Shown: positions 12,988 to 37,509 of the stretch, piece after piece
Layout of the letters: the number at the start of each line of letters is the position of its first letter
Position numbering within the stretch: position 1 is the stretch's first letter
From: Bradymonas sediminis
GTDB taxonomy: Bacteria; Myxococcota_A; Bradymonadia; Bradymonadales; Bradymonadaceae
Reading direction: 5' to 3'
DNA length: 64,000 nt
Assembly: GCF_003258315.1 (NCBI RefSeq)
Contig: NZ_CP030032.1
Location: 968,001-1,032,000 of the forward strand
The notes under the pieces: model-generated
Databases searched by the model: none
What the model was told of the DNA's origin: nothing
Seen by the model: only the letters and a program-made list of their open reading frames with translations
Position numbers and translations under genes: made by a program

Positions 12988-13136
12988 TCCCCGTCGAGCG
13001 AACCATGCTGCATCGTGCGGTTTGCGTCCTGCTCGAGCGAAGAAATTCAGCTTAAGACGAGTATTTTGTGGTCTATAAGTCGTCAGAAAATAGGTTTCAG
13101 GCCGACACCAAAGGTGTTGGTGCGTCCGAGAACGAT

Positions 13137-16100: not shown

Positions 16101-17012
16101 GCGCGCAAAGACGGCGCGTTCGTCAAGGTGAATTGCGCGGCTTTCGTCGATGACCTGCTGCTCAGCGAACTCTTCGGTCACGTCAAAGGCGCGTTTACCG
16201 GCGCGCTGAGCGACCGGGCAGGGCGCTTTGAGCTGGCCGACGGCGGCACCATCTTTCTCGACGAGGTTGGCGATATCTCGCCAAAAACCCAGGTCGCCCT
16301 GCTTCGCGTTCTGCAGGAGGGCTGCTTTGAGAAGGTCGGGTCGACCGAAACCCAAAAGGTCGACGCGCGACTGGTCTGCGCGACCAATAAGAATCTCGAA
16401 GAGATGGTCCAGCGCGGGGAGTTCCGCCTCGACCTGTATTATCGCCTCAAAGGTGTCGTCATGGAGTTGCCGCCGCTGCGTGAGCGGCGCGCGGATATTC
16501 CCAGGTTCGCCAACCACTTCGCCCATAGCTTCGCGCGCGGGCAACAGCCCAAGCGCTTCTCGCCGGATGTGCTGCGCTTTCTCGCCTCGTATAGCTGGCC
16601 TGGCAATATTCGGGAGCTGCAGAATTTTGTGGGCAGCGTGTTGCTCTTCGTCGAGGGCGATACCGTCGAGATGTCGCATGTCCATGAGTTTAGCGACTTC
16701 TTTGCCGGCGGTGAGGTGGATGCAGAATTGCCCGAGATCGACTATGATCTCGAATTAGACACGTATGACAATGTTGTGGAGGCATATCAGGACCCCGAAG
16801 AGGCTCTGGTCGAGCAGATCATCGCCGAGGGCCTGTCGTTGGCGAAGATCAAGACGCGTCTGGAGTCTGAGTCAATCCGGCGCGCGCTTATCGAGACGGG
16901 CGGCAACATCACTCGAGCGGCTGCGATGTTGCAGATGAAGCGGCCGCGTCTGAGTCAAATTGTAAACGGCACCGAAGATCTGTTAGCGTTGAAAAATGAA
17001 CTTGTTGGATAA
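13137..17012 (+). CDS. TPR-containing sigma-54-dependent transcriptional activator
   Basis: This is a 1291-residue regulator. Residues about 1-230 look like a degenerate ATPase or signal-input domain without a recognisable Walker A. About 240-860 is a long helical array of TPR-like repeats ([20 protein letters not shown] is one of the clearest). A full sigma-54 AAA+ domain follows: Walker [11 protein letters not shown], the sigma-54 contact loop GAFTGA, Walker [11 protein letters not shown], and arginine finger region LYYRLKGV. The last ~45 residues form a Fis-type helix-turn-helix ([20 protein letters not shown]). All residues needed for sigma-54 activation appear intact. No receiver or FHA domain is present, so input probably comes through the TPR scaffold. 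The ATG at 13137 is preferred over the one at 13068 because it lies closer to the conserved part. Confidence 0.93.
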
Positions 17013-20548: not shown

Positions 20549-20591
20549 CTTCTTTTTGACTCGTTTCATAGCAAATGACGCCTGCAATGGC

Positions 20592-23500
20592 CTAGGAATT
20601 CTCGCACTCGTCGAGATATTGCGCCAGTGAGTTCAGCGGCAATGCGAGCCAATCGGGGCGGTTATTGAGTTCGTAGCCAAGCTCGTAGACCATTTTTTCG
20701 ACCTCGTAGGCGTTGAGCAGTTTCGCGCAGAGTTCCCGGGAGGCGGGGCGTAATTTTGAATCGCGTGTCGCGTCGAGATAGGCGTTTAGATAGGCGGTAC
20801 GAACCTGCGCGAACCATGCGCTTCCCCAGTCCTGCAAGGGTGTGTCGCGGACCGAGGCGAGGTCCTGGTGCGAGTGATCCGAGAGGGCGAAGTGAGCAGC
20901 GTAGTGAAAGGAGCGAATCATACCGGCGACATCTCGCAGTGGTGAGCGGCGAATACGGCGCTCGCTGACCGGCCGCGCGGGCTCGCCCTCGAAGTCCGTG
21001 ATGATGAAGTCCTTGCCGGTGTGGAGGACCTGGCCGAGGTGAAAGTCGCCGTGGGTTCGGATACGCATCGCGTCGATTCGCTCCGGCAGGAGATCGAGGG
21101 CTGGACGATGGAGCAGGTCGCGCGAGTCGAGCAGACGTTGGGCGACCGGGCGAAGCGCGTCGGGCAGTGTGTCGAGCTTCTTTCGAAGTTCGGCGAGGAC
21201 GCGTCCGGTCAGGTTGCGCATCGATTGGTATTGGGAGCGCTGGTATAATTTCGAGAACCCTTCGCTGCCGAAATTCGGGTCGGCAGATGGCTGAGCGAGC
21301 GCGTGGTGAAGGTCGGCGGTGCGCTGGCCCAGCAGCCGCGCGGCGTCAGGGTAGCTGCCGATTAAATCATCAATATCTGTGGTGATATCGCCCTGAGGAT
21401 ACTCGCTTCGGTGCGCGCGGGTGACCACCCGGTCGTAGAAGCGATCGAGTTCGTCGAGGGTATAGGTCCAGGCGTCGCCTTCATTGGCAATAAACTCTTG
21501 CATGATCCCAAGGGTCTGAATCGGGTCCTTGCCCGTTCTATAGTCGAATTGCCCGGCGAGCTTGGGGGCGTGCTCGAAACCCTTGTCGGTAAGGTAGCGC
21601 CCGATCTCAGCGTCGAGATTTCCACCGGGCTCCAGCTTGCGAAAGAGCTTGAAGATAAGGCGGTCGCCATAAACGACCGACGTGTTGCTCTGCTCGGTTT
21701 GCATCACCTGAGGCTCGATGCTCTCGGCGGCTTCGAGGAGTTCCCAGAACTCATCGGAGCGCTCCGAGACGAGCGCGCCGTGTTGCCCTTGGCGCGGTTT
21801 TCCGCTGCGCAATATGTCGAAGAGCACGCGGGTGAATTCCGGGTCGACGATGGCATCGTAGAGCACACCCTCTTCGCCGATGGCGTCGAAGCGAAGGCGG
21901 GCTACGATCGGGTAGCTGCGCTGGATAGCCTGGGCCGCGTGGTCTCCCATCGCCAGCGCTAACGGGACGACGTAGACCTCCGTGTGATGATTCTCCGTTT
22001 CGACTTCGACCAGGCTTAAATAAACGAGGCGTTGGTCCAGCGCGATCGGGATGAGTTCTTGAAAGTTGACGTCTCGAATAAATGTTCCTTTCGAGGCGAA
22101 CCAGCGCTGGCGGCGAAGGAAGTCAGCCATCGCCCCTTCGATGCGTGCCCGGGAGCGGCCGCTGAGCGCCTCTTCAAGGGATTTCACGCGGTAGAGGGTG
22201 ACGTTTACGGGCTCGCTGCTCTCTTCCAGCGCCCAGCCCTGTTTGCTGTCTTCGTGCTCTTCGAGCGCAAACCAGTACACGCCGTGGGTGCCGAGGGTGA
22301 GGAAATAGGGCAGCTCCCCGATGGGCGGAAAAAGGGTGCGCCCAAATAGCTCGACGGGGACCATGCCTTGGAACTCGGATAGGTCGAGCTCGACATAATT
22401 TGGGGAGCGCGAAAGGTTGGCGATAATCAGGAGCTTTTCGCCCTCGTATTCGCGCAGGAACACCAGGACCTTTCGGTTATCGGGGCGCAGGATTCGCAGG
22501 GAGCCGCGCGCCAGCGCGGCGTGTCGCTTGCGCATCGCGAGCAGGCGCTTGGTCCACCAGAACAGCGAGCTTGGGTTTGCCTGTTGAACCTCGACGTTGA
22601 TCGTCTCATAGCTATATTCGGGGTCGATAATCACCGGCAGATAGAGCTGTTGAGGGTTGGTGCGCGAGAAGCCTGCGTTGCGGTCGCCGCTCCATTGCAT
22701 CGGGGTGCGCACGCCGTTTCGGTCGCCCAGGAAAATATTATCCCCCATGCCGATTTCGTCGCCATAATAGAGGACTGGCGTACCGGGCAACGCGAAGAGC
22801 AGGGCGTTCATCAATTCGATGCGGCGCCGGTCGTTATTCATCAGCGGGGCGAGGCGACGGCGAATCCCGAGATTAACCCGTGCGCGGGCTTCGCGGGCAT
22901 AGGCGCGGTACATAAAGTCGCGCTCCTCGTCGGTGACCATCTCGAGGGTGAGTTCATCGTGATTTCGCAGGAAGACCGCCCACTGGCAGGTGTCGGGAAT
23001 CTCCGGGGTCTGCTCCAAGATATCGACGATAGGAAAGCGGTCTTCCTGTTGTAGCGCGAGGAAGAGCCTGGGCATGACCGGAAAGTGATAATTCATATGG
23101 CATTCGTCGCCGTCGCCGAAATATTCGGCGGCGTCTTCGGGCCATTGATTCGCCTCGGCGAGCAACATGCGGTCTTCGAAATTTGCGTCAACGTGGGCGC
23201 GCAGTTGCTTTAGGAACGCGTGGGTCTCGGGCAGGTTCTCGCAATTGGTTCCCTCGCGTTCGTAGAGGTAGGGGACGGCGTCCAGGCGCATGCCGTCGAC
23301 GCCCATCTCGAGCCAATAATCGAGCACCTCGAAGAGCGCCTTTTTGACCGCCGGGTTGTCGAAGTTAAGGTCGGGCTGGTGGCTATAGAAGCGATGCCAA
23401 TAATAGGCTTTGGCGACCGGATCCCAGGCCCAATTTGAGTTCTCGAAATCCTGGAAGATAATCCGTGCTTCGGCGTAGGTATTCGGGTCATCGCTCCACA

Positions 23501-23894
23501 CGTAGAAGTCGCGCTCCGGGCTCCCCACAGGGCTTTGGCGGGCGAGTTGGAACCAGGGGTGTTTATCCGAGGTGTGATTGACCACCAATTCGGTGATGAC
23601 GCGGATGCCGCGCCGGTGGGCGGCGTCCAAAAACGCCTTGAAGTCTTCAAGGGTTCCGTAGTCAGGGTGGACGTTGCGATAGTCCGCGATATCATAGCCG
23701 TCATCGCGAAGCGGAGACGGGTAAAACGGCAGCAACCAGATGGCAGTGATGCCGAGGTCTTGCAGGTAGTCGAGCTTCTGCTTTAATCCGCAAAAATCCC
23801 CCACACCGTCGCCGTCACTATCATAGAAGGTGCGCACGTGGACTTCGTAGATTACCGCGTCTTTATACCATTGGGGGTCTTTTTCGAACGCCAA
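20592..23894 (-). CDS. treS: Trehalose synthase-maltokinase fusion
   Basis: This 1100-residue bifunctional protein covers two steps. Residues about 1-550 are a GH13 trehalose synthase: [20 protein letters not shown] start, [11 protein letters not shown] (nucleophile Asp), [12 protein letters not shown] (acid/base Glu) and FLRNHDE (third Asp). It interconverts trehalose and maltose. Residues about 580-1100 are a maltokinase (Pep2/Mak): [12 protein letters not shown], a kinase-like lobe ending [21 protein letters not shown] with [10 protein letters not shown], the catalytic and metal-binding loops. It phosphorylates maltose to maltose-1-phosphate, the GlgE substrate. Fused TreS-Pep2 proteins are known in several phyla. 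glgE is 30 bp upstream on the same strand. Confidence 0.96.
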
Positions 23895-23924
23895 TTTCCT
23901 GTCCTTGGATTAGGGTCTGAGAGA

Positions 23925-26015
23925 CTAAAAATAATAATCGAAATCCTGCTCATTGCGCGGGCGCTCACCGATGCGAAAAATATGCACCGGACACCGTTGG
24001 GGCGTGAGTTCCACAAAGTTATGCCGTCCTCGCCAGATATAGCGCGCGTCATCGACCAGGTCGTGAATATGAAAATGGCGCTCCGGGTCGAGGCCAAGCG
24101 CCTCTAAGTCGAGCTCGACGGTGGCCGAGTGGGTGTGTGCGGCGCTGAGGTTCGCCACGACCAGAATAAAATTATCGTGCGCGTCGGAGCGCTTGCTAAA
24201 CACGAAGATCGCGTCATTGTCCGCGCCGTGAATTGTGGTGTTTCGGTTCTGTTGAAGCGCGGAATTTTCGGCGCGAATACGGTTAAGCCGGCGGATGAAA
24301 TCGGTGATATTCGGTGTCTGATTCAGATTCCATGTGCGCAATTGGTATTTCTCAGAGTCCAGGTATTCCTCGCTGCCTGGGTGGCGCGGGACGTGTTCCA
24401 TCAGTTCGAAGGCGGGCCCGTAGATCCCGTAATTGGAACTCATCGTCGCGGCGAGGGCGGCGCGCAGCATAAAAGTCGCGCGTCGTCCATTTTGAAGCGT
24501 TTCGTGGAGGATGTCGGGGGTATTGGGCCAGAAATTCGGCCGCATAAAGTCAAGCATCTCCGGGCGCGTAACCTCGCGGAGGTACTCGCTGAGTTCGTGT
24601 TTGGAGTTGCGCCAGGTGAAATAGGTATAGGATTGGGAGAACCCCAGCTTCGCCAACCGGTGCATGACCGCCGGGCGAGCGAAGGCCTCTGACAGAAAAA
24701 TGGTCTCCGGGTAGTTCGTTTTGATCGTGGGGATTAACCACTCCCAGAAATTAAACGGTTTGGTGTGCGGGTTATCGACGCGAAAGACGCGCACGCCGCA
24801 GTCGCACCAGAACGCAAAAATGCTGGCTAGCTCTGCCCAGAGAGCGCGCCAATCCTGGGTTTCGAAGTCAAAGGGGTAGATATCCTCGTATTTTTTGGGT
24901 GGATTTTCGGCGTATTGAATCGTTCCGTCGGGACGCTCCCGAAACCACTGCGGATGCTGGGCGACATAGGGATGATCCGGGGAGACCTGAAAGGCGATAT
25001 CGAGAGCGATGTCGAGGTCGAGGTCGCGTGCATAGCCGACGAGTCCCTTAAAGTCTTCCAATGTTCCGAGGCGGGGGTGGACGGATTTGTGTCCGCCGGC
25101 AGCGCTCCCAATGGCCCAGGGGCTTCCGACGTCATCGGCGGTGGCTTTCGTCGCGTTATTTGCGCCCTTGCGATGGGTCTGCCCTATGGGGTGGATGGGT
25201 GGAAGGTAGACAATATTAAATCCGAGATCCGCGGCATAATCGAGCCGTTCTTTGCATTGCGAGAGCGTCGCGTGCTCGGGAGGCGTGCCTGCCGGCGGTG
25301 GGCCAGACACGGCCGGAGAGCGTGGAAATAACTCGTACCAGCTCGAGAAGCGTGCGCGAGTCGGTTCGACGTCGACCCGGAGTTCCGGCTGGTAGCGAGT
25401 GACGGCTCGGCGCTCGGCCCACTCACACATCAAATGGGCCAACGGGCGCTCTTGGGCGAGGTTTGCGCGTTGAGTTTGCGTGCGGTTTGCGCTCTCGAGT
25501 TGGACGGCATAGGCGGCGAGCGAGGCGGCAGATGCGGGGGCGTCGACCTGCTCGGCGTGGGCTTGGGCGGCTCGGACCATGGCGGCGCCGATGCGAAGGT
25601 CGACGTCGATATCTTGGTCCGCCTGAGCTCGTTTTCTCAGGTCTTCTCGCCAGGTTCTAAACGCGTCGACCCATCCGATGACCGTATAGTAGTAGATTCC
25701 CAATTTCGGCAGTCGAAAGCCGGCCTGCCAGTGATCCCAGCCCTCCTCATTCATCACAATGTGAGACCATTGTTGCTCGGTCCAGTGGCGCCATAGGAGC
25801 TCGCAGCGGGGCTGGTCGTGGCCGTCGCAAAACGCGCGGGCGCGAATCATAAGGGTGTCGTTGATGCAGCGTTTGAGCGCGAATCGGCCCGCGTCGACTG
25901 TCGGCTCAACCCGGTCGATGATGACGCGTGAGCGGTCCATTTTTGGCAACGCTATCGACGGATTTGTTGCATCCCGGGACCCGAATTGCGAATGATTTGA
26001 AGGGTTTAGTTGCAT
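23925..26015 (-). CDS. glgE: Alpha-1,4-glucan:maltose-1-phosphate maltosyltransferase
   Basis: This 696-residue protein is GlgE of the GH13_3 type. The N-terminus RVIIDRVEPTVDAGRFALKR is the usual GlgE beginning, followed by a beta-sandwich, a helical insert, then the barrel with YLPPIHPIGQTHRKG, VFRVDNPHTKPFNFWEW (nucleophile Asp) and ETIFLSEAFARP (acid/base Glu), plus FTWRNSKHEL. It transfers maltosyl units from maltose-1-phosphate onto alpha-glucan. An internal ATG at 25940 sits nearer the conserved start and could be used instead. It is the first gene of the operon glgE, treS-maltokinase, GH57, and is divergent from otsA. Confidence 0.96.
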   Translation of the reverse strand: MQLNPSNHSQFGSRDATNPSIALPKMDRSRVIIDRVEPTVDAGRFALKRCINDTLMIRARAFCDGHDQPRCELLWRHWTEQQWSHIVMNEEGWDHWQAGFRLPKLGIYYYTVIGWVDAFRTWREDLRKRAQADQDIDVDLRIGAAMVRAAQAHAEQVDAPASAASLAAYAVQLESANRTQTQRANLAQERPLAHLMCEWAERRAVTRYQPELRVDVEPTRARFSSWYELFPRSPAVSGPPPAGTPPEHATLSQCKERLDYAADLGFNIVYLPPIHPIGQTHRKGANNATKATADDVGSPWAIGSAAGGHKSVHPRLGTLEDFKGLVGYARDLDLDIALDIAFQVSPDHPYVAQHPQWFRERPDGTIQYAENPPKKYEDIYPFDFETQDWRALWAELASIFAFWCDCGVRVFRVDNPHTKPFNFWEWLIPTIKTNYPETIFLSEAFARPAVMHRLAKLGFSQSYTYFTWRNSKHELSEYLREVTRPEMLDFMRPNFWPNTPDILHETLQNGRRATFMLRAALAATMSSNYGIYGPAFELMEHVPRHPGSEEYLDSEKYQLRTWNLNQTPNITDFIRRLNRIRAENSALQQNRNTTIHGADNDAIFVFSKRSDAHDNFILVVANLSAAHTHSATVELDLEALGLDPERHFHIHDLVDDARYIWRGRHNFVELTPQRCPVHIFRIGERPRNEQDFDYYF

Positions 26016-26483
26016 GGTTACCAGCGTGGAATCGGCCTAGAAATAGCAGTTATCAGTGCGGGCAAATGCCGCGACTGCTCTCCTACGTGCAACGACCCCG
26101 CGCAGGTAATGATGAGTGGGTACAAGCGTAGACACCGGGTAGAACCGGGCAAGTTACGAAGTGAAACTTTCCGGGCAATAGCGACTCAGGCGGCTTTCGT
26201 CGGGGGGATTAATCGGGTTTTGAGAGGAAAATTTCGCATCTTCTTGTCATTCGCTTCGTGATGTCTACGTTGACTTGCGAGGAAGAAAATTAGTTCGCGG
26301 TCTCTTTTTATAGCCGCGCAGAAATCCGCTTCGTTACGCTGTAGCAGTATAGAACCCGTCGCCAAAAATTAACTCGCTACAGGATGCATCGTGCCTTCAG
26401 AAAACCCGTTAGAACCATATAGTTACGTTTGCTCAAATGCCTCCTCAGAGATGCACGTCGAAGGTGCATCGGTGGGGGATATC
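26016..26483. other. Divergent intergenic region between glgE and otsA
   Basis: No coding sequence stands out in these 468 bp. The region must hold the promoters for the minus-strand glgE operon and the plus-strand otsA. The otsA side is A/T-richer than the surroundings and contains TTGACT near 26270 without a convincing -10 at standard spacing. I could not assign an operator. Confidence 0.5.
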
Positions 26484-28061
26484 ATGCGCAAGGAATACGC
26501 CACGAAAGGTCTGGCGATTGTGTCGAATCGGCTGCCGACGATAGTGGAGTTCGAGGCGAGCACGAAAGCGTGGTCGGGCAAGCCGGGGTGTGGAGGGTTG
26601 GTGTCGGCGATGAACCCGATATTGGAGCGGCGCGGGGGGACCTGGGTGGGGTGGCCCGGGATGATCAATGAGGACGCGCGCGGCCATGAGTCGCGCCTGG
26701 ATGAGTTGCTCGACGGCCTTGGACAGCAGGCCGGGTATGCGTTGGAGTCGGTGATGCTAAACGCCGAGCAGGTGCGTGATTATTATGGAGGGTTCGCCAA
26801 CTCGGTGCTGTGGCCGCTATTCCACGGTTTTCCGAATCGCTGTGACTTTAACCCGCGCTATTGGAAGTCGTATTTGAAGGTCAATCGCCGCTTCGCCGCG
26901 ACGTTGATGGACACGCTCGACGAGGACCAGCCGGTCTGGGTGCATGACTATCATCTGCTCGTAGTGGCCGAAATGTTGCGAAGCATGGGCTTCGAGGGGC
27001 GAATCGGATTTTTCTTGCATATCCCGTTTCCGGCGTTGGAGAATTTCATCAAGTTGCCGTGGCGCGCCGAGTTGATGCGTGCGTTGCTGGCCTTCGATCT
27101 CGTCGGGTTTCAGTCGGCGCGCGATGAGCGGAACTTCCTGGAATGTGTTGAGCGCCTTGTACCCCATGCGTCGATCTCGCGGGTCGCGTCGACCAGCACG
27201 GTCTTGCTAGAGGGCGAGGCAGCCCAAAGCGTGACGGTGGGCGTTTTCCCGATCAGCATTGATTTTGAGGACTTTGAAACCCGGGCGCGCTCGCCATCCG
27301 TGCTCCAGCATCTTGACGCCTTGCGGCGCGACTTTGGGGCCACGAAAATGTTTTTGGGGGTGGACCGGCTGGACTATACGAAGGGATTGGTTGAGCGCTT
27401 CCACGCGTTTGAATTGCTCTTAGAGGAGCATCCGGAGTTATGTGAGAGCGTTGTGCTCTTTCAATTGGTGGTTCCAAGTCGCGAAAATGTGCCCGAATAT
27501 CAGGCGCTTAAGCGCGAGGTTGACCGCATCGTCGGGCGGATTAACGGCCGGTTTAGCTCGCCGAGCTGGCAGCCCATTCACTACCTCTATAATACGGTCA
27601 GCACCGAGGAGTTGACGGCTCTATATCGCTTCGCCTCTGTGGCGGTCGTGACGCCGCTTTGCGACGGGATGAACCTGGTGGCCAAGGAGTTTTGTGCCGC
27701 CCAGGTCGACGAGAGTGGGGTGCTGGTGTTGAGCGAATTTGCTGGCGCAGCCGATGAGTTTCATCGCGACGCACTGCTGGTAAATCCATACGACACGGTG
27801 GGGTGTGCGCAGGTTCTATATCGAGCTGTCATGATGGACCGGCAGGAGCGAAGAGAGCGTATTCAACGGCTTCGGGCGCGGGTGCAGACCCATCATGTCT
27901 TCAGGTGGGCGAATCAATTCGTCGAGAGTCTTCACGAGCCGAGCACTCTGTTGGAGGTCTCGGATACCGAGTATCTGCCGACCATCGACACCGGGGAGTT
28001 TGCGGCGAGTCTCTTCATTCCACCGGACCCATTTGGCGACGCGACGCGTCCCTCACTCTAG
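26484..28061 (+). CDS. otsA: Trehalose-6-phosphate synthase
   Basis: This 525-residue GT20 enzyme makes trehalose-6-phosphate from glucose-6-phosphate and a nucleotide-glucose donor. Family motifs are all present: [10 protein letters not shown], the glycine loop [56 protein letters not shown] and [17 protein letters not shown] chose the ATG at 26484 because GGTGGGGGAT lies just upstream and the conserved VSNRLP then begins near residue 12; an upstream GTG at 26391 would add 31 poorly conserved residues. There is no phosphatase domain at the C-terminus and no OtsB gene in the window. It is divergent from the GlgE operon, which consumes trehalose. Confidence 0.95.
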
Positions 28062-28161: not shown

Positions 28162-29235
28162 TCAGGCTCCGGGCGGTAGAAATTTTTGCACGCCGGCGAG
28201 CATCAGGTCGTGAGATTTTTCGAGGCGGTGGTTGTCGTCCACCTCGATGATTTTGATGCCGTGTTTGGCGCACTTCTCGCGTACCGGTCCGATGGGAACG
28301 ATATCATCCTGTCGGGCGTGGATGACGACCGCGTCTTCAGGCATGCGTTCGACCTTGTCGGAGGCTTCCTGGTAGAGGGCCGGGGCCATGAGGACCAGGC
28401 CGCGCACGCGCTCGGGGTTTCGCGAATAGAAGAGGGAGGCGAGCAGTCCGCCGTAGGATGAGCCCACGATGACCAGGTTTCGCAGGCCCTGGGTCTCACG
28501 CTCGATTTTGTCCAGGCGCTCCCAGACGTCCATCCCCTGAAAATCGGGGGAGAAGACTCGGTTGGACTCGCACAGGCGTTGGTATTTTGACCCGTGGGGA
28601 CCCGACTCAAGTCCGTGGAAGAAATAGAGTAGTGGGTCGCCTTTCGACTCGCCGCTCGTTGAGCCCGACGCATTCATGGTGTCGACCAGGCGCTTCAGTT
28701 CGTTGGCAAGGTAGCCGGGTTTTTTGTGCAAGAAAATATTTGAGAGCACCCGATAATACCACAGGGAGCCCGCGCGCTTGGCGGTGAATCGCTCCCACAG
28801 AATGTCGCCCTCGACTTCTAGGTCCGCGACGATGGCCCGTGCGTTATAGACCTTGTCACACAGCGACACCAAAAGGGTGGGGGAGTCGGCGGGCAAGGCG
28901 TGGAGGTGATCCAAATAGGTCTGTTTGCGCGCGGCCCACGGCGGCTTCGGCAGAGTATCTGAGTCAGTACAACCTTCGACGATCTCGAGCACTCGCGGGC
29001 CGAATTTCTCGTCAATGTGCGCGCGAATTTCGGGCATCTCATCGACGCAATCCTCGATGCTGTCATGCAGCAGTCCGGCGATGACCTGGTCCTCATCACC
29101 GCCAAAACTGCCCACCAGTGAGGCCACGCCCATCAGGTGGTTGATATAGGGGACATCCTTTCCTTTTCTGGTTTGATTTCGGTGCAATTGGGCGGCGAAG
29201 GCGAGGGCAAGGTCGAAGCGGTTTGAATAGGCCAT
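28162..29235 (-). CDS. SpoT/MESH1-like HD hydrolase fused to an alpha/beta hydrolase
   Basis: This 357-residue protein has two domains. Residues about 5-190 match the HD hydrolase of RelA/SpoT and MESH1: HRNQTRKGKDVPYINHLMGV, GLLHDSIED (metal-binding HD and downstream ED) and SLCDKVYNARAIVADL (equivalent to the ADRLHNMRT motif). This suggests hydrolysis of (p)ppGpp or a related nucleotide. Residues about 210-357 are an alpha/beta hydrolase of YqiA type: LYFFHGLESGPHGSKYQ, nucleophile Ser in VGSSYGGLLASL, acid in ARQDDIVP and the His in DDNHRLEKSH. I chose the ATG at 29235 with AGGA upstream. It is divergent from a hybrid kinase gene, and a diverged paralog of it lies at 32.6-33.4 kb. Substrates are inferred from family only. 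Confidence 0.88.
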   Translation of the reverse strand: MAYSNRFDLALAFAAQLHRNQTRKGKDVPYINHLMGVASLVGSFGGDEDQVIAGLLHDSIEDCVDEMPEIRAHIDEKFGPRVLEIVEGCTDSDTLPKPPWAARKQTYLDHLHALPADSPTLLVSLCDKVYNARAIVADLEVEGDILWERFTAKRAGSLWYYRVLSNIFLHKKPGYLANELKRLVDTMNASGSTSGESKGDPLLYFFHGLESGPHGSKYQRLCESNRVFSPDFQGMDVWERLDKIERETQGLRNLVIVGSSYGGLLASLFYSRNPERVRGLVLMAPALYQEASDKVERMPEDAVVIHARQDDIVPIGPVREKCAKHGIKIIEVDDNHRLEKSHDLMLAGVQKFLPPGA

Positions 29236-29432
29236 GCAGATTCTTCCTAGTTGATGGTGAGGCGAACTTAAAAACAGCAACCCTCAGTAGTTTCGATAGA
29301 TCAATTGCTTACGATACTATTGTGGCTTTCTCAAATGGACACAGCCGTTTGGTAGCGCGCGCTCTAAATAATTCTCGAATCGACCGGGGGAACTATCTTT
29401 TAGGGGCGTGCTCATTTCAGCGGACGATATCC

Positions 29433-32012
29433 ATGTATAGGAAAAACCCAGAGAATCCGGACTTCTTTCGCATCGCAGGTGAGATGCGGGCTGCGTTGAA
29501 TTCGGTGGATTGGAACGCGACGTCGCTGGGGCCGTCGCAGAAGTGGCCTGAGAGTCTGAAGAGCTATCTGTCGGTGATCTGGGAGTTGCCGACGGCCGCG
29601 GTCATCTTTTGGGGGGAGGAGTTCATTCAGATCTACAATCAGGGTTATGCCGATATTATGGGGCCGCTGCGTCACCCAAAATACCTGGGGGAAAAAGCTG
29701 AGCATTGCTGGCCCGACACCTATCCGGTGCTGCTGCCATGGATGCATCTAGCCATGGAGAAGGAGGCGTCGAAGACGTTCGAGCGTACCCACCTAAAATT
29801 GACCCGCCACGGCTTTGAGGAGGAAGGGTATTTTACGTTTACGTTCAGCCCACTGCGCAATGATATCGGCGAGGTGGGTGGGGTGCTCCAGATCGTTGTT
29901 GAGGTGACAAAGTCAGTGCTCGCCGAGCGCCGGGCCGAGACGCTTTGGGCCCTGACGCAGCATCACCGGGGGCGTGACGTCTTGGATGAGGCTATCAGTG
30001 TAGTCGCGGACAATGCGTTGGATATCCCGTTTTCACTTGTTTATCTGTGGAATAGTACGAGTCAGCGACTCGAACTCTCCGGGCAAACGGGGTTTGAGGA
30101 GAGCGATGCCCGCGCAAAGGAGATGGACGGACTTTTTGAGTGCGCGACACAGGTTTGCCGGGGCGGTGAGCCGAAATATCTCGAGGATATCGGCGATTTA
30201 ATGCCGACGCCGCATATCAACGTATGGGGCGACCGCACGCGCAGCGCCTTTGTCGTGCCGCTTCAGCGCTCCGCCAGCGGGCGGTGCCGCGGCGTCATCT
30301 TCTTCGGGCTGAGCACGCGTATGCACTTCGACGCGGCGTATCGGGTATTCCTAGAGGAGTCAGTTCGAGCGCTGGTGGTCAACCTGCAGGCAGCCCGGGC
30401 GCGGCGTATTGAGGTGGAGTTAATCGAGCGTGAGCGTGCCGCGCGGCGCGAGGCTGAGTTTCAGCGCGAGGACCTGGTGCGTCTATTAACCCAGGCGCCG
30501 GCGCCGATGATTTTGTTGCGCGGCGCGGATATGGTCGTGGAGTTAATCAATGCTCATGCGTGCCGAATTTGGGGCAGAGAGCATGACGCGGTGATTGGTC
30601 GGCCGGTTTTGGATGCAGTGCCCGAGGTTCGCGGGACGGTTTACGACCGGATGCTTCAGGAGGTCTTTGAGACGGGCGAAACCCAGGCGGGACGAGAGCA
30701 GCGATTTGAGATCCTTGCTGCGTCGGGTGAGGTGGAGGTCAGCTACCTGAATTTCGTCTATTCGCCGCTACGCAGCCCTGCAGGGGAAGTGGACGGGGTG
30801 CTTGTTCTCGCGTTTGACGTAACCGAGCAGGTCCGCGCGCGCCACGAGGTCGATGGGCTGCGCCACGCGGCCGAGGCTGCGAATCGGACCAAAGACGAGT
30901 TTTTGGCCATGCTCGGCCATGAACTGCGAAACCCGCTCGCCCCGATCATTACGGCGGTCGAGTTGATCGAATTGCAGGGGGGCGAGGCCTTTCGCGTTGA
31001 GCGCGATATCATCAAACGCCAGGCCGAGCATATGGTCACGCTCATCGATGACCTGCTGGATATATCGCGCATCACCCGCGGCAAGGTCGAGTTAAACCGC
31101 ACCCGGGTGGATATGCGCGATGTCGTGTCTCAGGCGATTGAGATGAGCGCCCCGCTGATGGCAGCCCTTCGCCATGATTGCGGCACCGACATCGCTGATG
31201 AGCCGCTGTGGGTCGATGGGGACCCGGCGCGGTTGGCTCAAATTGTGTCGAATTTGCTCACGAACGCCGCGAAATATACGCCGGCTGCTGGTAGGATAAC
31301 CGTGCGAGCAGAGCGCGAGGGGGATTGCGTGGTGGTGAGGGTAAAGGATAACGGCATCGGCATCAGCCCGGAGATGATGCCAAAGATATTCGACTTATTT
31401 ATGCAAGAGGGGCAGTCGCTGGAGCGCGATGAAGGCGGGTTGGGGTTGGGGTTGGCGATTGTGCAGAATTTGGTCACGCTGCACGGGGGCACGGTTGAAG
31501 CGATGAGCCCCGGGCGTGATCAGGGGAGTGAGTTCATCGTGCGGCTTCCGGCGCTGACCTTGTCGGGAGACGACGCTGAGCCGGAGGCGCCCGGCGGGCG
31601 GCTCGAAGAGATGGGTCAGCGCAAATCGCGGGGGTATCGTATTCTCGTGGTCGACGACAATATCGACGCCGCCGCCGCGCTGGGGTTGTGGTTGGAGCTC
31701 GAAGGGCATCAGGTGCAGGTTGCCCATGACGGGGAGGAGGCGCTGGCGCAGGTGGAGCATTGGGCGCCGGACCTGGCGCTGCTCGATATCGGGTTGCCCC
31801 GGATGAGTGGGTATGAGCTCGCCCAGCATCTCCACGCCTGCCCGGGGCTCTCGGAGTTGCCGATCGTCGCTATTAGCGGCTACGGGCAAAAGGCCGACCG
31901 AGAGCGCTCGCGCCGGGCGGGGTTCTTCGCGCATCTGACCAAACCCGTCGGCCTGGAGCGACTCGGTCCGCTCATCGAGTCGCTCCTATCCGACGCGCCC
32001 CCGGCGGACTGA
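29433..32012 (+). CDS. Hybrid sensor histidine kinase with PAS, GAF and receiver domains
   Basis: This 859-residue soluble protein has, in order, PAS (about 15-155, with WELPTAAVIFWGEEFIQIYN), GAF-like (about 165-325), PAS (about 345-470), HisKA with His496 in AMLGHELRNPLAP, HATPase_c (about 590-705; N-box QIVSNLLTNAAKY, G1 KDNGIGI, G2 GGLGLGLAIV) and a receiver (about 735-850) with phospho-acceptor Asp785 in LALLDIGLPRMSGYE. The ATG at 29433 begins the conserved part; an ATG at 29223 would add 70 unlikely residues and overlap the divergent gene. The last 985 bp are repeated at 35.1-36.1 kb as a broken copy. The output partner is not encoded nearby. Confidence 0.93.
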   Translation: MYRKNPENPDFFRIAGEMRAALNSVDWNATSLGPSQKWPESLKSYLSVIWELPTAAVIFWGEEFIQIYNQGYADIMGPLRHPKYLGEKAEHCWPDTYPVLLPWMHLAMEKEASKTFERTHLKLTRHGFEEEGYFTFTFSPLRNDIGEVGGVLQIVVEVTKSVLAERRAETLWALTQHHRGRDVLDEAISVVADNALDIPFSLVYLWNSTSQRLELSGQTGFEESDARAKEMDGLFECATQVCRGGEPKYLEDIGDLMPTPHINVWGDRTRSAFVVPLQRSASGRCRGVIFFGLSTRMHFDAAYRVFLEESVRALVVNLQAARARRIEVELIERERAARREAEFQREDLVRLLTQAPAPMILLRGADMVVELINAHACRIWGREHDAVIGRPVLDAVPEVRGTVYDRMLQEVFETGETQAGREQRFEILAASGEVEVSYLNFVYSPLRSPAGEVDGVLVLAFDVTEQVRARHEVDGLRHAAEAANRTKDEFLAMLGHELRNPLAPIITAVELIELQGGEAFRVERDIIKRQAEHMVTLIDDLLDISRITRGKVELNRTRVDMRDVVSQAIEMSAPLMAALRHDCGTDIADEPLWVDGDPARLAQIVSNLLTNAAKYTPAAGRITVRAEREGDCVVVRVKDNGIGISPEMMPKIFDLFMQEGQSLERDEGGLGLGLAIVQNLVTLHGGTVEAMSPGRDQGSEFIVRLPALTLSGDDAEPEAPGGRLEEMGQRKSRGYRILVVDDNIDAAAALGLWLELEGHQVQVAHDGEEALAQVEHWAPDLALLDIGLPRMSGYELAQHLHACPGLSELPIVAISGYGQKADRERSRRAGFFAHLTKPVGLERLGPLIESLLSDAPPAD

Positions 32013-32618
32013 AGAAGGCGCGCGGCGCGGGCGCACCTTAGTCCCAGGAGCGCGCTATCTGCAGGTTTCGATAGCTCTGGTTGAGCATATCCATTTGCAT
32101 CATCTCGGTTTGCATCCGCAGGCCGGCGTTCGGGTCGAATTTATGCGATTTGTTCGCGCGCTTCTTGGAGCGTTTCGCCTGCCGGGCCGCTCGCGCCTGG
32201 CTATCCTTTGCCTGAGCAATCTTTTTTCGCATCACCAGATAATCGACGAGTTGCTTTTGGTATTTCTCGCGTGTCGCTGAATCCGTCGCCTTCCTGGACT
32301 TGAGCGTGATCTCGTCCATCCACTTCTTTTGGTAGCTCTTGGTAAATGCCTGTTTTTGGGTGTCGTCCAGGGCGTTCCATTGCCCGTTGAGCTTGCTCCA
32401 GGCGACGGGCATTGTGCTCATCTGGCGCTGCTGGGCGGCGGAGAGGCTGGCCCAGAGTTTGGTGATCTTGAGCTTGAAGGCTTGTTCGTGTTTGGCCTGC
32501 ATTTTGAAGCCAGGCTGATCGTAGAGCAGGCCGGTTTGAAATTGTAGGAACTCGAAGGTCGCGTTGAGGACTTTGGCCGAGGGGCGTTTGGTGTAGCCAG
32601 GCTCCTGCGTTTTCTCGG
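31028..32618. repeat. Direct repeat, copy A (1591 bp)
   Basis: Bases 31028-32618 recur in the same orientation at 35100-36691. Copy A holds the C-terminal half of the intact hybrid kinase plus, on the other strand, the C-terminal part of the chimeric gene. By eye the copies differ at only 14 bases and one inserted G (about 99% identity); nine differences fall in 31662-31793 and five in about 32405-32423. Left of the repeat both copies share GGCCG-n-G imperfect homology; on the right, the sequence diverges just after TTTTCTCGG. Confidence 0.95.
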
Positions 32619-33429
32619 AATAGAGCAGCGAGGCGAGCAGGCCGCCGTAGGACGACCCGACCAATATGAGCTGACGGAGTCCCCGGGTTTCGCGCTCAAT
32701 TTTTTCAAATCGCGCCCAGATATCCATGCCCTGAAAGTCGGGAGAGAAGACGTGGAATGACTCGCTGAGGCGTTGATATTTCGAACCGTGCGGACCCGAT
32801 TCGAGTCCATGAAAAAAGTAGACTACCGGCTCCGCTTCCATCGCATCGCGCGGTGCTCTGAAGTCCGACATGAGGTTCACGCAGCGCGTTAGTTCATCGG
32901 CGAGGTAGCCGGGATTTTTGAGCAAGAAAATATTTGAGAGCACGCGATAATACCACAAAACACTCGTGCGATTGGCTGAGAAACGCTCCCAGAATCGATC
33001 GCCCTCGACTTGCAGATCGGCCACGATCGCCCGGGCATTATAGACCTTGTCGCAGAGCGAGACCAAAAGGATGGGGGAGTCGTTGGGGAGGGCGTGGAGG
33101 TGGTCCAAATAGGTCTGTTTTCGCGCGGACCAGGACAGTTTGGGATCGCCCGCAAACTGGGTGCATCCGTCAACAATCGTGGCCACGCGCGGGCCAAATT
33201 CGCCCAAAATCTGCGCGCGAATATCAGGCACTTCGTCGATATAATCCTCGACGGCGTCGTGCAGCAGAGCGGCGATGACCTGTTTCTCATCGCCGCCGTA
33301 GGTGCCGACCAGCGAGGCCACGCCCATCAGATGGTTGATATACGGGACGTCTTTGCCCTTTCGGGTCTGATCGCGATGAAGCTTCGAGGCGAAGGCGAAG
33401 GCGCGGTCAAATTGTTCGGAGTAGGACAT
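32038..33429 (-). CDS. Chimeric gene: HD hydrolase paralog joined in frame to the C-terminus of the 36.1-kb gene
   Basis: The predicted 463-residue product is a fusion made at base 32618. Residues 1 to about 270 parallel the HD/alpha-beta hydrolase protein at 28.2-29.2 kb: HRDQTRKGKDVPYINHLMGV, ALLHDAVED, SLCDKVYNARAIVADL and the nucleophile elbow VGSSYGGLLASLLYS. The hydrolase part stops there, so its acid and His residues are lost. Residues about 271-463 are nearly identical to the C-terminus of the secreted protein at 36111-37043, beginning EKTQEPGYTKRPSAKV. The HD domain is complete, so a soluble alarmone-hydrolase-like activity could survive. I start it at the ATG at 33429, which aligns with its paralog; a TTG at 33486 would add 19 residues. 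Confidence 0.8.
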   Translation of the reverse strand: MSYSEQFDRAFAFASKLHRDQTRKGKDVPYINHLMGVASLVGTYGGDEKQVIAALLHDAVEDYIDEVPDIRAQILGEFGPRVATIVDGCTQFAGDPKLSWSARKQTYLDHLHALPNDSPILLVSLCDKVYNARAIVADLQVEGDRFWERFSANRTSVLWYYRVLSNIFLLKNPGYLADELTRCVNLMSDFRAPRDAMEAEPVVYFFHGLESGPHGSKYQRLSESFHVFSPDFQGMDIWARFEKIERETRGLRQLILVGSSYGGLLASLLYSEKTQEPGYTKRPSAKVLNATFEFLQFQTGLLYDQPGFKMQAKHEQAFKLKITKLWASLSAAQQRQMSTMPVAWSKLNGQWNALDDTQKQAFTKSYQKKWMDEITLKSRKATDSATREKYQKQLVDYLVMRKKIAQAKDSQARAARQAKRSKKRANKSHKFDPNAGLRMQTEMMQMDMLNQSYRNLQIARSWD

Positions 33430-33524: not shown

Positions 33525-34115
33525 TCACTGGAGCAGCCACTCAAAGCCGGTCGAGTAGCTCAGATTATTATAGTCCATGCGCTCATTTTCGAACGCGAAC
33601 TTAATGCTGCTTTGGGCGACTGTCGGGCAGCACACCGTCGCCTGGCGCTCGACGACGCGAAAAATTTTCTCGCCGGGCTCGGTGAGCGAGAGTCCCATAA
33701 AAGTGTCCGCGGCGACGGCGCTGACGGCGACGGTTTCGACCCGTCCGGCATAGGTATAATCGTAGACGCTGACAACCTCTTCGTCGGCGACCGCGTCGAC
33801 GGACTGACCGTCGATGATGCAACTGGGTTGCTGCTGTGAGATCGGCTCGTCATAGATGCGCGCGGTGCGCAGGGTAATCTGCGCGCAGGACTCGCCGTCA
33901 CCCACGCTCGCGAGGATTGCTTCGTCGATGACGGCGTCGTGGCGGATATCACCTGGCACTTCTTCGACGCGATCGGCGGCCGCAAAATAATTCTGCAGGC
34001 GCGCGTATTTCGTGCCGATATGATCGCGACTGAGCGCGCGGGAGACGGTGTGGTTGCAGGCGACGGCGCCAGTTAATAGGGCGAGGATGAGGGCAATTCG
34101 GGCTGGGGATTTCAT
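33525..34115 (-). CDS. Hypothetical lipoprotein
   Basis: This 196-residue protein starts at the ATG at 34115, preceded by GAGAAG, and carries a clear lipoprotein signal peptide with lipobox LLTGAVAC. The mature part has no domain I recognise. It contains paired cysteines (QATVCCPTV; SCAQITLRT; SCIIDGQS) and the segment RVETVAVSAVAADTFMGLSL, pointing to a disulphide-containing extracytoplasmic beta-rich domain. It lies in the segment between the two copies of the direct repeat and is flanked on both sides by broken genes, so it may have arrived with that segment. Confidence 0.75.
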   Translation of the reverse strand: MKSPARIALILALLTGAVACNHTVSRALSRDHIGTKYARLQNYFAAADRVEEVPGDIRHDAVIDEAILASVGDGESCAQITLRTARIYDEPISQQQPSCIIDGQSVDAVADEEVVSVYDYTYAGRVETVAVSAVAADTFMGLSLTEPGEKIFRVVERQATVCCPTVAQSSIKFAFENERMDYNNLSYSTGFEWLLQ

Positions 34116-34309
34116 ACGTCTTCTCGGGAAATATTGCGAATCAATTTTGGAGCTACTCTGCGTGCATTTAGATACCTCAACACCATGGTAGCAAACAAGT
34201 TGCCCGCGTGAATGGCCGCCAATTGTGGACGCGCGGAAACCGGACTGGTAGTTTGATGCATCACTAATATGCGTCCTCGCCGCAATCAAACTCCACCGTG
34301 GTGCTTTTC

Positions 34310-35099
34310 ATGAATCGATTCCAAAATGTTGAACGGCTCCTTATTTGGATGGCCTTTACGTTGGTGTTTTCAACTGGATGTGAGTCGTCGTTGCGCTCAA
34401 ATCTTTATGATTCGGGAACCGACGCCGACGCTTGGAGTGTCGAGCAGGACGCTATTGGGGCGCCCGACGATATAACGCCCTCGGAAGATGCATTCGCGGT
34501 CGATATCGAGCCAGCCGATGAAACGGACGCGGATGCGTTTTCAACACCCGAAGACGTCACGCCTGCTGATCCCGACGCCTCGTCGACGGATACCGTGACA
34601 CCCGATCCGGATCCAGATCCAGATCCAGATCCAGACCCCGACCCCGATCCAGATCCCGACCCAGATCCCGACCCAGATCCCGACCCGACGCCCACCGGTC
34701 CCCCCACCGCCTATATGGCCGAGATGACTTATATGACCGCCAATATCGGTCGAACCTATTCGGGAAAACCGTTTGTGCAGGGGGTTTTCAATCGCATCGG
34801 AGATAATATCGGGCCGAGGTCTGGCCCGAAGTTTATTGGTTGGCAGGAAATCGGCGAGGGTGATCCGTGTGGGGCATCCTGTGAGATCGATGCGCTGCGC
34901 AACCGGTTTAAGGCGGACTGGGGATGGACGACGCGCCACCGCAGAGGGCAGCGACCGAACGGGCAAATGGAGCGGGCCAAGGTGCCCATCACCTCCAAAG
35001 GGGTTTCGCCCGTCGGGGCCGGCCGGGCGAAATTCGCCTCGCCGGGTTGGGCAGGGGTGAGCCCCACGCGATTCGTGACGGTGGTGCGCTACGGGCCGC
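34310..35099 (+). pseudogene. Truncated secreted endonuclease/exonuclease/phosphatase-family lipoprotein
   Basis: The N-terminus has a lipoprotein signal (lipobox FSTGC), an acidic linker, and a run of about 14 Asp-Pro dipeptides. A domain opening MTYMTANIGR and FIGWQEIGEGDPC then follows, which matches the start of the endonuclease/exonuclease/phosphatase fold (the Asn and Glu metal-site motifs). The gene is cut at 35099, where the repeat copy B of the kinase begins; the frame then runs out of phase into kinase sequence and stops at 35167. Most of the catalytic domain, including the C-terminal Asp/His motif, is missing, so it is very likely non-functional. Confidence 0.8.
34602..34688 (+). 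repeat. Asp-Pro coding microsatellite
   Basis: A tandem hexanucleotide array based on GATCCA/GACCCC/GATCCC encodes an (Asp-Pro) linker in the truncated lipoprotein. Such low-complexity acidic linkers after the lipid anchor are common in secreted proteins of this lineage and are prone to length change by slippage. Confidence 0.85.
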
Positions 35100-36085
35100 G
35101 CATATGGTCACGCTCATCGATGACCTGCTGGATATATCGCGCATCACCCGCGGCAAGGTCGAGTTAAACCGCACCCGGGTGGATATGCGCGATGTCGTGT
35201 CTCAGGCGATTGAGATGAGCGCCCCGCTGATGGCAGCCCTTCGCCATGATTGCGGCACCGACATCGCTGATGAGCCGCTGTGGGTCGATGGGGACCCGGC
35301 GCGGTTGGCTCAAATTGTGTCGAATTTGCTCACGAACGCCGCGAAATATACGCCGGCTGCTGGTAGGATAACCGTGCGAGCAGAGCGCGAGGGGGATTGC
35401 GTGGTGGTGAGGGTAAAGGATAACGGCATCGGCATCAGCCCGGAGATGATGCCAAAGATATTCGACTTATTTATGCAAGAGGGGCAGTCGCTGGAGCGCG
35501 ATGAAGGCGGGTTGGGGTTGGGGTTGGCGATTGTGCAGAATTTGGTCACGCTGCACGGGGGCACGGTTGAAGCGATGAGCCCCGGGCGTGATCAGGGGGA
35601 GTGAGTTCATCGTGCGGCTTCCGGCGCTGACCTTGTCGGGAGACGACGCTGAGCCGGAGGCGCCCGGCGGGCGGCTCGAAGAGATGGGTCAGCGCAAATC
35701 GCGGGGGTATCGTATTCTCGTGGTCGACGACAATGTCGATGCGGCCGCCGCGCTGGGGTTGTGGTTGGAGCTCGAAGGGCATCAGGTGCAGGTTGCCCAT
35801 GATGGGGAGGAGGCGCTGGCCCAGGTAGAGCATTGGACGCCGGACCTGGCGCTGCTCGACATCGGCTTGCCCCGGATGAGTGGGTATGAGCTCGCCCAGC
35901 ATCTCCACGCCTGCCCGGGGCTCTCGGAGTTGCCGATCGTCGCTATTAGCGGCTACGGGCAAAAGGCCGACCGAGAGCGCTCGCGCCGGGCGGGGTTCTT
36001 CGCGCATCTGACCAAACCCGTCGGCCTGGAGCGACTCGGTCCGCTCATCGAGTCGCTCCTATCCGACGCGCCCCCGGCGGACTGA
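35100..36085 (+). pseudogene. Kinase remnant (C-terminal half of the hybrid kinase)
   Basis: This copy of the 31028-32012 stretch contains the end of HisKA, the ATPase domain and the receiver. It has no start region and no N-terminal sensor part. An inserted G near 35597 (a GGGGG run instead of GGGG) shifts the frame between the ATPase and receiver parts. The receiver half, 35588-36085, is open on its own and retains LALLDIGLPRMSGYE, but a start and ribosome site are lacking. Confidence 0.85.
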
Positions 36086-36691
36086 AGAAGGCGCGCGGCG
36101 CGGGCGCACCTTAGTCCCAGGAGCGCGCTATCTGCAGGTTTCGATAGCTCTGGTTGAGCATATCCATTTGCATCATCTCGGTTTGCATCCGCAGGCCGGC
36201 GTTCGGGTCGAATTTATGCGATTTGTTCGCGCGCTTCTTGGAGCGTTTCGCCTGCCGGGCCGCTCGCGCCTGGCTATCCTTTGCCTGAGCAATCTTTTTT
36301 CGCATCACCAGATAATCGACGAGTTGCTTTTGGTATTTCTCGCGTGTCGCTGAATCCGTCGCCTTCCTGGACTTGAGCGTGATCTCGTCCATCCACTTCT
36401 TTTGGTAGCTCTTGGTAAATGCCTGTTTTTGGGTGTCGTCCAGGGCGTTCCATTGCCCGTTGAGCTTGCTCCAGGCGGTGGGCATATTGCTCATCTTGCG
36501 CTGCTGGGCGGCGGAGAGGCTGGCCCAGAGTTTGGTGATCTTGAGCTTGAAGGCTTGTTCGTGTTTGGCCTGCATTTTGAAGCCAGGCTGATCGTAGAGC
36601 AGGCCGGTTTGAAATTGTAGGAACTCGAAGGTCGCGTTGAGGACTTTGGCCGAGGGGCGTTTGGTGTAGCCAGGCTCCTGCGTTTTCTCGG
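35100..36691. repeat. Direct repeat, copy B (1592 bp)
   Basis: This is the same sequence as 31028-32618, one base longer. Here the left border cuts the endonuclease-like lipoprotein gene, while the right part belongs to the apparently intact secreted-protein gene (36111-37043). With copy A it brackets a 2481-bp unique segment (32619-35099). Confidence 0.95.
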
Positions 36692-37043
36692 CGCGACGCT
36701 TCATCGCGAGGGTCTTGCCCATGGCTTCCAGTCGGAGCGTGTCGCCGGTGAGCTTCGCGCGGAAATCGACGGTTTTGGGGGCGTCGCCGAAGGTGCCCAC
36801 CAACCACACGTCCGCGGCCAGCCCCCGCACCGCGAGGGTCGTCTTATCCTGAACGCGCACACTCCCCACGTAGGTGTGGGCCTCCTCGCCGCGGGCCAAT
36901 TTTAGGATGCCTCCGCCGCCTTCGTACACGCCCGAGAATTCGTGCTCGCCGGCGTAGGCCGGCGCGGCCACGCTGATGCACAGCGCGCTTAGGACGAGCA
37001 TTATGGCGGTTAAAATCGCGTTTGCTTGCGTTCGTTCTTTCAT
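36111..37043 (-). CDS. Secreted hypothetical protein (donor of the chimera's C-terminus)
   Basis: This 310-residue protein starts at the ATG at 37043, behind an excellent GGGAGAAG site. A classical signal peptide ends at PAYA, so it is exported and not lipid-anchored. Residues about 30-115 form a beta-rich domain (HEFSGVYEGGGGILKLARG...). Residues about 115-310 are helical and very basic, with repeated Lys/Gln/Ala/Met (FKMQAKHEQAFKLKITKLW, AKDSQARAARQAKRSKKRAN, then a Met-rich QTEMMQMDMLNQSY). I do not recognise the family. The basic helical half could bind nucleic acid, lipids or wall polymers, but that is speculative. Its C-terminal 580 bp is duplicated in the chimeric gene. Confidence 0.75.
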   Translation of the reverse strand: MKERTQANAILTAIMLVLSALCISVAAPAYAGEHEFSGVYEGGGGILKLARGEEAHTYVGSVRVQDKTTLAVRGLAADVWLVGTFGDAPKTVDFRAKLTGDTLRLEAMGKTLAMKRRAEKTQEPGYTKRPSAKVLNATFEFLQFQTGLLYDQPGFKMQAKHEQAFKLKITKLWASLSAAQQRKMSNMPTAWSKLNGQWNALDDTQKQAFTKSYQKKWMDEITLKSRKATDSATREKYQKQLVDYLVMRKKIAQAKDSQARAARQAKRSKKRANKSHKFDPNAGLRMQTEMMQMDMLNQSYRNLQIARSWD

Positions 37044-37509
37044 CTTCTCCCTCTCAATGAGTCGTTGTGGCTGGTCTAAATGCGCGCAGAAAATCGGCAA
37101 AGTGGCGCGACGCCGCGTTGCGCTGCGGGCGGGAGGTTCCCAACTGCTAACTTCTAGGAGGTATATCGCATGCTAGCACGGTGAGGGGGGCTGCGCAATT
37201 TGGGCGCCTGCTCGTGTCGCCGCCGGTTAGTGTTCGCGCGGCGAGTCGGTCGGAGGCGGCAGGAGCCGGTGATTGGGTCGGGCGCGAAAAAATCATCAGA
37301 TGGAACTCGGGGGGTTGCGCTCGGGCGAAAAGCCTGAGATAGGCGGCGCGGCGGGCGCCGTGTTTCGGGTGCTCAGGCGGCCCCCGAGCTTTTCGTTTTT
37401 CGCGCTGGAATAATACGCCGCGCGCATCGTTGCGTATGCGAACCCGGAGCTGGCCGCGCCAGCGTCTTTACAGAGCAATCTTTGCTTACTGCCCTACCGG
37501 TTTATCGAA
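37044..37509. promoter_or_regulatory. Intergenic region with a nested RNA-like structure ahead of the DUF2179 gene
   Basis: No gene is visible in this 466-bp stretch. It contains an RNA-type fold on the plus strand at 37306-37398. An outer stem CTCGGGGG/CCCCCGAG (37306-37313 with 37381-37388) encloses an inner stem GCCTGAG/CTCAGGC (37332-37338 with 37372-37378), which encloses GGCGC/GCGCC. The outer 3' strand is followed directly by CTTTTCGTTTTT, a terminator-like tail. It lies about 110 nt before the ATG of the DUF2179 gene. The layout is that of an attenuator or riboswitch expression platform. Confidence 0.5.

Follow-up and report, generated by a model that had tools for sequence, protein, structure and literature searches.

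The fused gene and its two halves

The window analysed here, a 64,000-nucleotide stretch of contig NZ_CP030032.1 from Bradymonas sediminis, carries on its minus strand a gene in which a small alarmone hydrolase (SAH) domain of the HD type is joined in frame to a putative alpha/beta hydrolase; a second, diverged copy of the same fusion lies 4 kb away. The host is a predatory member of the Myxococcota, and its genome comprises 5,045,683 bases in one contig. The features of the first copy (copy 1) are as follows:

28162-29235, minus strand: fused gene copy 1 (P0001), SAH plus alpha/beta hydrolase, 357 residues (open frame, Pfam/NCBIfam, AlphaFold2)
29243-29248, minus strand: Shine-Dalgarno-like AGGAAG, 7 nucleotides 5' of the copy 1 ATG (read directly)
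28666-29235, minus strand: predicted SAH (HD) domain, residues 1-190 (HD_4, 7qoe, Foldseek)
28633-28665, minus strand: Gly/Ser-rich linker, residues 191-201 (low model confidence)
28165-28632, minus strand: predicted alpha/beta hydrolase domain, residues 202-357 (Abhydrolase_1, 2qjw profile and fold)

The frame of copy 1 is intact when read directly from the sequence, with its ATG at 29235 and its stop at 28162-28164. An initial sequence-only reading of this locus had proposed that a single frame joins an HD domain to an alpha/beta hydrolase, and this is borne out by Pfam matches to both halves: HD_4 at residues 10-156 (E = 1.1e-24) and Abhydrolase_1 at residues 230-285 (E = 1e-9). NCBIfam additionally assigns TIGR00691 (spoT_relA; E = 3e-17), a match that is confined to the first half. 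As judged from these scores, the domain matches are far beyond chance. Structure prediction, suggested as a check by the same reading, yields two confident domains: the AlphaFold2 model, calculated from 22 homologous rows, has a mean predicted local distance difference test score (pLDDT) of 92.7 and a predicted TM-score of 0.76, and confidence is low solely near residues 191-200 (pLDDT 58). In the model, copy 1 is thus two well-formed domains joined by what appears to be a flexible linker.

The catalytic positions of the HD half, namely, H33 (with its RKG motif), H57-D58, E61-D62, D127 and N131, are all retained, as judged by motif position and by alignment to SAHs. Compared with solved structures, this half matches the Leptospira protein 7qoe (E = 2e-47) and Corynebacterium RelH 7qoc (4e-33) best, with MESH1 well behind (9e-15). 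In Foldseek, ranks 1-5 for the N-terminal half are all taken by 7qoe, 7qoc and 7qod (TMt 0.85-0.90; for 7qoe, TMt 0.88 with a root-mean-square deviation of 1.8). Both 7qoe and 7qoc are labelled small alarmone hydrolases in the Protein Data Bank, and RelH proteins of this type have been placed in a group named MixSpo (PMC10434055). The RelH-type SAHs outscore 3nr1 and 5vxa by far, which argues against membership of the MESH1/Mesh1 subgroup. The layout of a long RelA/SpoT homologue (RSH), in which HD, SYNTH, TGS and ACT domains follow one another, is likewise not seen: synthetase, TGS and ACT domains are absent from the fusion protein, and Pfam and NCBIfam reveal the HD part of spoT_relA alone. 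In its catalytic residues and nearest structures, the first half agrees with the SAHs, whereas in overall layout the protein departs from their single-domain form, with a second enzyme at residues 202-357. Sequence and predicted fold together support the assignment of the first half to the SAH family, nearer to RelH than to MESH1. The proposal that this half is related to the alarmone hydrolase part of RelA/SpoT and to MESH1 is, therefore, upheld and refined, and the profile and fold matches do not point to the non-alarmone HD family that would have contradicted it.

In the C-terminal half, the predicted catalytic triad comprises S260 (in GSSYG), D310 and H336, so that GxSxG, Asp and His occur in the order found in serine-type alpha/beta hydrolases, on an alpha/beta fold. 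Nine stand-alone homologues all retain the Ser within an unchanged GSS.GG, and conservation in the Asp and His columns is 90% or more. The nearest solved structure is XCC1541 (2qjw; profile E = 3.9e-12, 24% identity), which Foldseek also retrieves, together with esterases. These observations support the view that the second half is a cap-less alpha/beta hydrolase and a putative serine hydrolase. The motifs quoted for both halves in the sequence-only reading are present, but its description of the second half as 'YqiA-like' holds only loosely: the score of copy 1 against UPF0227 (PF05728) is 20.8 bits and falls just below the gathering cut-off of 21.0 (a stand-alone homologue in L045 reaches 21.9), and the closest solved fold is that of XCC1541. 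YqiA itself is active on palmitoyl-CoA.

The second copy and its truncation

The second fusion gene and the segment that replaces its 3' end are delineated as follows:

32038-33429, minus strand: fusion copy 2, a chimera of an intact SAH, the first ~71 residues of the alpha/beta hydrolase and a foreign tail (identity, HD_4)
32038-32618, minus strand: copy 2 foreign tail, derived from the 3'-terminal part of gene 36111-37100 (the protein sequences are 98% identical)

Copy 2, which the sequence-only reading had not mentioned, is 71% identical to copy 1 over residues 1-275 (~75% at the DNA level), gives an HD_4 match with E = 2.7e-23 and has the same HD catalytic residues. In trees built separately for each half, the two copies are sisters (support 100/99 for the SAH half and 97/92 for the alpha/beta half). 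The ratio of non-synonymous to synonymous substitution rates (dN/dS) between them is 0.21 for the SAH half, 0.07 for the shared alpha/beta part and ~1.3 for the linker, figures that are rough because dS is near or above 1 (~0.9 in the SAH half). Just 12% of positions are identical in the linker region (residues 187-203). Since both halves are sisters in the trees and have evolved under purifying selection while the linker has drifted, the best reading of these comparisons is a single fusion that was later duplicated, with both halves probably constrained for most of the time since.

The end of copy 2 has a more recent history. The segments 31022-32618 and 35094-36691 are 99.0% identical in DNA and form a 1.6-kb direct duplication that takes in the 3' portion of the gene for a hybrid histidine kinase as well as the final stretch of 36111-37100. 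On the evidence of this near-identity, the duplication has replaced the end of the copy 2 serine hydrolase: its acid and histidine are gone, but the SAH residues are retained. The two blocks lie 2.5 kb apart, and the intervening unrelated DNA contains the start of copy 2. A simple tandem duplication as the source of copy 2 was rejected in view of this spacing and of the contrast between the 99% identity of the blocks and the ~75% identity of the fusions. Several other features of this region were noted. The donor of the tail, 36111-37100, is a secreted-looking product with a signal-peptide-like start at ~37043 and no confident Pfam match. The segment 35094-36085 is a duplicated kinase fragment that lacks the N-terminal part and, compared with the intact kinase, is shifted in frame by one base; it resembles a pseudogene in decay. 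A small lipoprotein-like gene with no Pfam match (33525-34289) lies 5' of copy 2.

Distribution and genomic setting

A match spanning both halves was found in none of ~1,070 other genomes, at cut-offs that would not have detected a fusion whose SAH half had diverged much further; the genome that contains the window is alone in having one. The searches covered 57 relatives, a draw of 379 from the phylum and, with stricter cut-offs, 395 around a Bacteroidales locus and 298 around a Gemmatimonadetes locus. Nor was such a match present in 235 plasmid records with a match or in 46 phage records. In the 57 relatives and the 379 phylum genomes, the SAH (~190 residues) and the alpha/beta hydrolase (~160 residues) are encoded separately at different loci, or one occurs alone. 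Apparent fusions elsewhere (for example, G027:C44, 627 residues; G032, 559 residues) were dismissed as chance open frames in GC-rich DNA, because the homologous part stops where the stand-alone gene would end. A literature search likewise found no fusion of an SAH to an alpha/beta hydrolase, and a survey of RSHs describes SAHs as generally single-domain (PMC3153485). Given that relatives make two separate proteins, the fusion is real, apparently new and so far observed in the Bradymonas lineage alone; the earlier impression that the pairing was undescribed has, thus, survived searches of the literature and of genome, plasmid and phage sequences.

The genome encodes one RelA_SpoT synthetase domain, located within a long Rel frame of 735 residues, and a search of the genome for a small or toxic alarmone synthetase found none. 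A toxin-antitoxin setting was rejected on this ground, and the SAH half is, by inference from gene content, an orphan that would tune the alarmone pool and not an antitoxin. Derivation of the HD half from the organism's own Rel was also rejected, as it shares ~31% identity with Rel versus 66% with stand-alone SAHs. A scan of genome contigs with weakly conserved peptides returned three distant HD proteins alone.

Around copy 1, the principal neighbours are:

29223-32012, plus strand: PAS/histidine kinase/receiver hybrid kinase, divergent neighbour of copy 1 (Pfam)
26391-28061, plus strand: trehalose-6-phosphate synthase (GT20, OtsA-like), convergent neighbour (Glyco_transf_20, E = 9e-141)
17984-26015, minus strand: GlgE-type alpha-glucan cluster of GH57/DUF3536, a TreS-maltokinase fusion and GlgE (Pfam)

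The gene stands alone between the converging synthase gene and the diverging kinase gene. The region 17984-28061 as a whole forms an alpha-glucan/trehalose cluster that includes the OtsA-like synthase and a TreS-maltokinase fusion of 1100 residues, and further along, at 13068-17012, is a large protein of 1314 residues that combines tetratricopeptide repeats with a sigma-54 activator. The neighbourhoods of the stand-alone genes in relatives revealed no useful recurrence except inside one close genus. In one relative (G011; L047:5924-7683), a 4-nucleotide overlap exists between the stand-alone alpha/beta gene and the stop codon of an acyl-CoA dehydrogenase gene; this arrangement suggests translational coupling and offers a weak hint towards thioesters.

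Interpretation and relation to known systems

We favour the explanation, which we hold to be probable though far from secure, that the fusion is a bifunctional, two-headed hydrolase, as the retained catalytic residues and the modelled folds would suggest. The N-terminal half would be a Mn-dependent SAH that cleaves the 3'-pyrophosphate from (pp)pGpp and so tunes the alarmone pool, and it may also act on other 3'- or 2'-phosphorylated nucleotides. Related SAHs take off this pyrophosphate, the T. denticola enzyme is Mn-dependent, and C. glutamicum RelH hydrolyses (pp)pGpp with reported Km values (all PMC10434055). The C-terminal half would be an independent small serine hydrolase, acting through Ser260-Asp310-His336 to cut a small ester or thioester; a YqiA/YcfP-type esterase favours short p-nitrophenyl esters (PMC13230378). 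The short flexible linker would tether the two and, because it holds them together, would supply both activities at a 1:1 ratio in one cell location. The suggestion of the sequence-only reading that alarmone turnover could be coupled to ester or thioester cleavage may be kept at that strength, its basis being the fusion itself and its apparent conservation since the duplication.

A number of points weigh against a joint function. The recent truncation of copy 2 has cost it a functional alpha/beta half, yet its SAH half seems undamaged; the two activities are thus not bound to occur together. In relatives, the two genes lie at different loci and often one occurs without the other, which means that there is no earlier sign of a shared pathway. 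No substrate is predicted for the alpha/beta half, and the high dS limits the precision of the dN/dS values on which the argument for conservation draws.

It is possible, though in our view doubtful, that the joining was an accident of gene arrangement which brings no functional coupling, and that each of the two working domains acts on its own substrate, like its unfused counterpart in relatives. Parts that are unlinked in relatives, a linker that is not conserved between the copies and a copy 2 that has lost its alpha/beta end with no obvious loss in the SAH half are all consistent with such a neutral fusion, but purifying selection has, judging by the dS of the SAH half, maintained the fused arrangement over a long period in both copies, which a passing accident would hardly account for. 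Alternatively, one half might be a sensor: the binding or hydrolysis of alarmone in the HD half would control whether the serine hydrolase is active, or control would run the other way. We judge such an arrangement unlikely. Long RSHs are regulated by crosstalk between their domains, which provides a precedent. Contact between the halves would be permitted by the flexible linker and by SAH dimerization, which is probable (homodimers are reported for related SAHs; PMC10434055), but both active sites look catalytic and not degenerate, and the linker is not conserved. At the far end of the scale, an artefact, either an erroneous frameshift or a pseudogene whose decay mimics a fusion, has next to no probability: copy 2 is indeed partly broken by the recent duplication, but copy 1 lends the idea no support, a sequencing or assembly frameshift is ruled out by the second, diverged in-frame copy, and purifying selection, a complete genome and a confident two-domain model all argue the other way.

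The remaining alternatives concern the substrates. The HD half could act mainly on NADPH or (p)ppApp instead of (pp)pGpp, in which case the fusion would serve redox or nucleotide metabolism; we do not think this likely. For the orphan XccSAH, hydrolysis of (pp)pGpp, pppApp and NADPH is documented, yet its performance on NADPH is ~40-fold below that of Mesh1 (PMC9765508), and the activity characterized kinetically in C. glutamicum RelH, which is among the near relatives of solved structure, is (pp)pGpp hydrolysis (PMC10434055). Two-step catabolism of coenzyme A (CoA), in which the alpha/beta half would release CoA from acyl-CoA and the MESH1-like half would strip its 3'-phosphate to leave dephospho-CoA, is attractive but seems distinctly improbable. 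MESH1 acts on CoA (PMC13221220), and the overlap with the acyl-CoA dehydrogenase gene in G011 would fit, but that link is seen at one of the eight loci examined, and the SAH half is nearer to alarmone-type RelH than to MESH1. The stronger form of this idea, a dedicated CoA-salvage or CoA-degrading enzyme that would place a bacterial SAH in coenzyme metabolism and tie acyl-CoA levels directly to alarmone turnover, is very unlikely.

The general view of SAHs is of small enzymes with one domain, and there is debate over what they act on in the cell: alarmones, NADPH and, most recently, CoA, the last in the case of MESH1. That one of them has become joined to a second enzyme, and that selection has preserved the joined form in two copies, hints at the activity with which an SAH is partnered in the cell; copy 2, with its partner cut off by the recent duplication, is a natural control. 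What is apparently new is the lineage-specific fusion, both component families being already known; its interest is moderate, as it could reveal what a bacterial SAH works with. A transcriptome of B. sediminis in co-culture with prey exists (PMC7460792).

Compared with known systems, the alpha/beta half shares with XCC1541 (2qjw) and YqiA/UPF0227 a small lid-less fold and the sequence order GxSxG, Asp, His, but the known proteins of these types are stand-alone, whereas the Bradymonas domain is fused. The actRel-type small alarmone synthetase with an N-terminal DUF429 (PMC3153485) is another small RSH enzyme that carries a further domain, although it is a synthetase and not a hydrolase, and DUF429 is unrelated to the alpha/beta hydrolase. 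XccSAH of Xanthomonas (PMC9765508), an orphan SAH with no toxic alarmone synthetase, serves as a model for a housekeeping SAH; it is likened to the fusion by description and not by sequence, being a single-domain protein assigned to Mesh1-L. MESH1 (HDDC3) and Drosophila Mesh1 (3nr1, 3nqw) share the superfamily and the metal-binding HD site, but are more distant (9e-15 versus 2e-47), lack the PKPPW stretch and are not fused. The closest parallels are the RelH proteins of Leptospira levettii (7qoe) and C. glutamicum (7qoc/7qod), which have the same HD fold and catalytic residues, a similar domain length and no synthetase; a PKPPWxxRK insertion is, moreover, common to 7qoe and the SAH half of the fusion. 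The known RelH proteins are single-domain, and to this plan the Bradymonas protein adds a C-terminal alpha/beta hydrolase.
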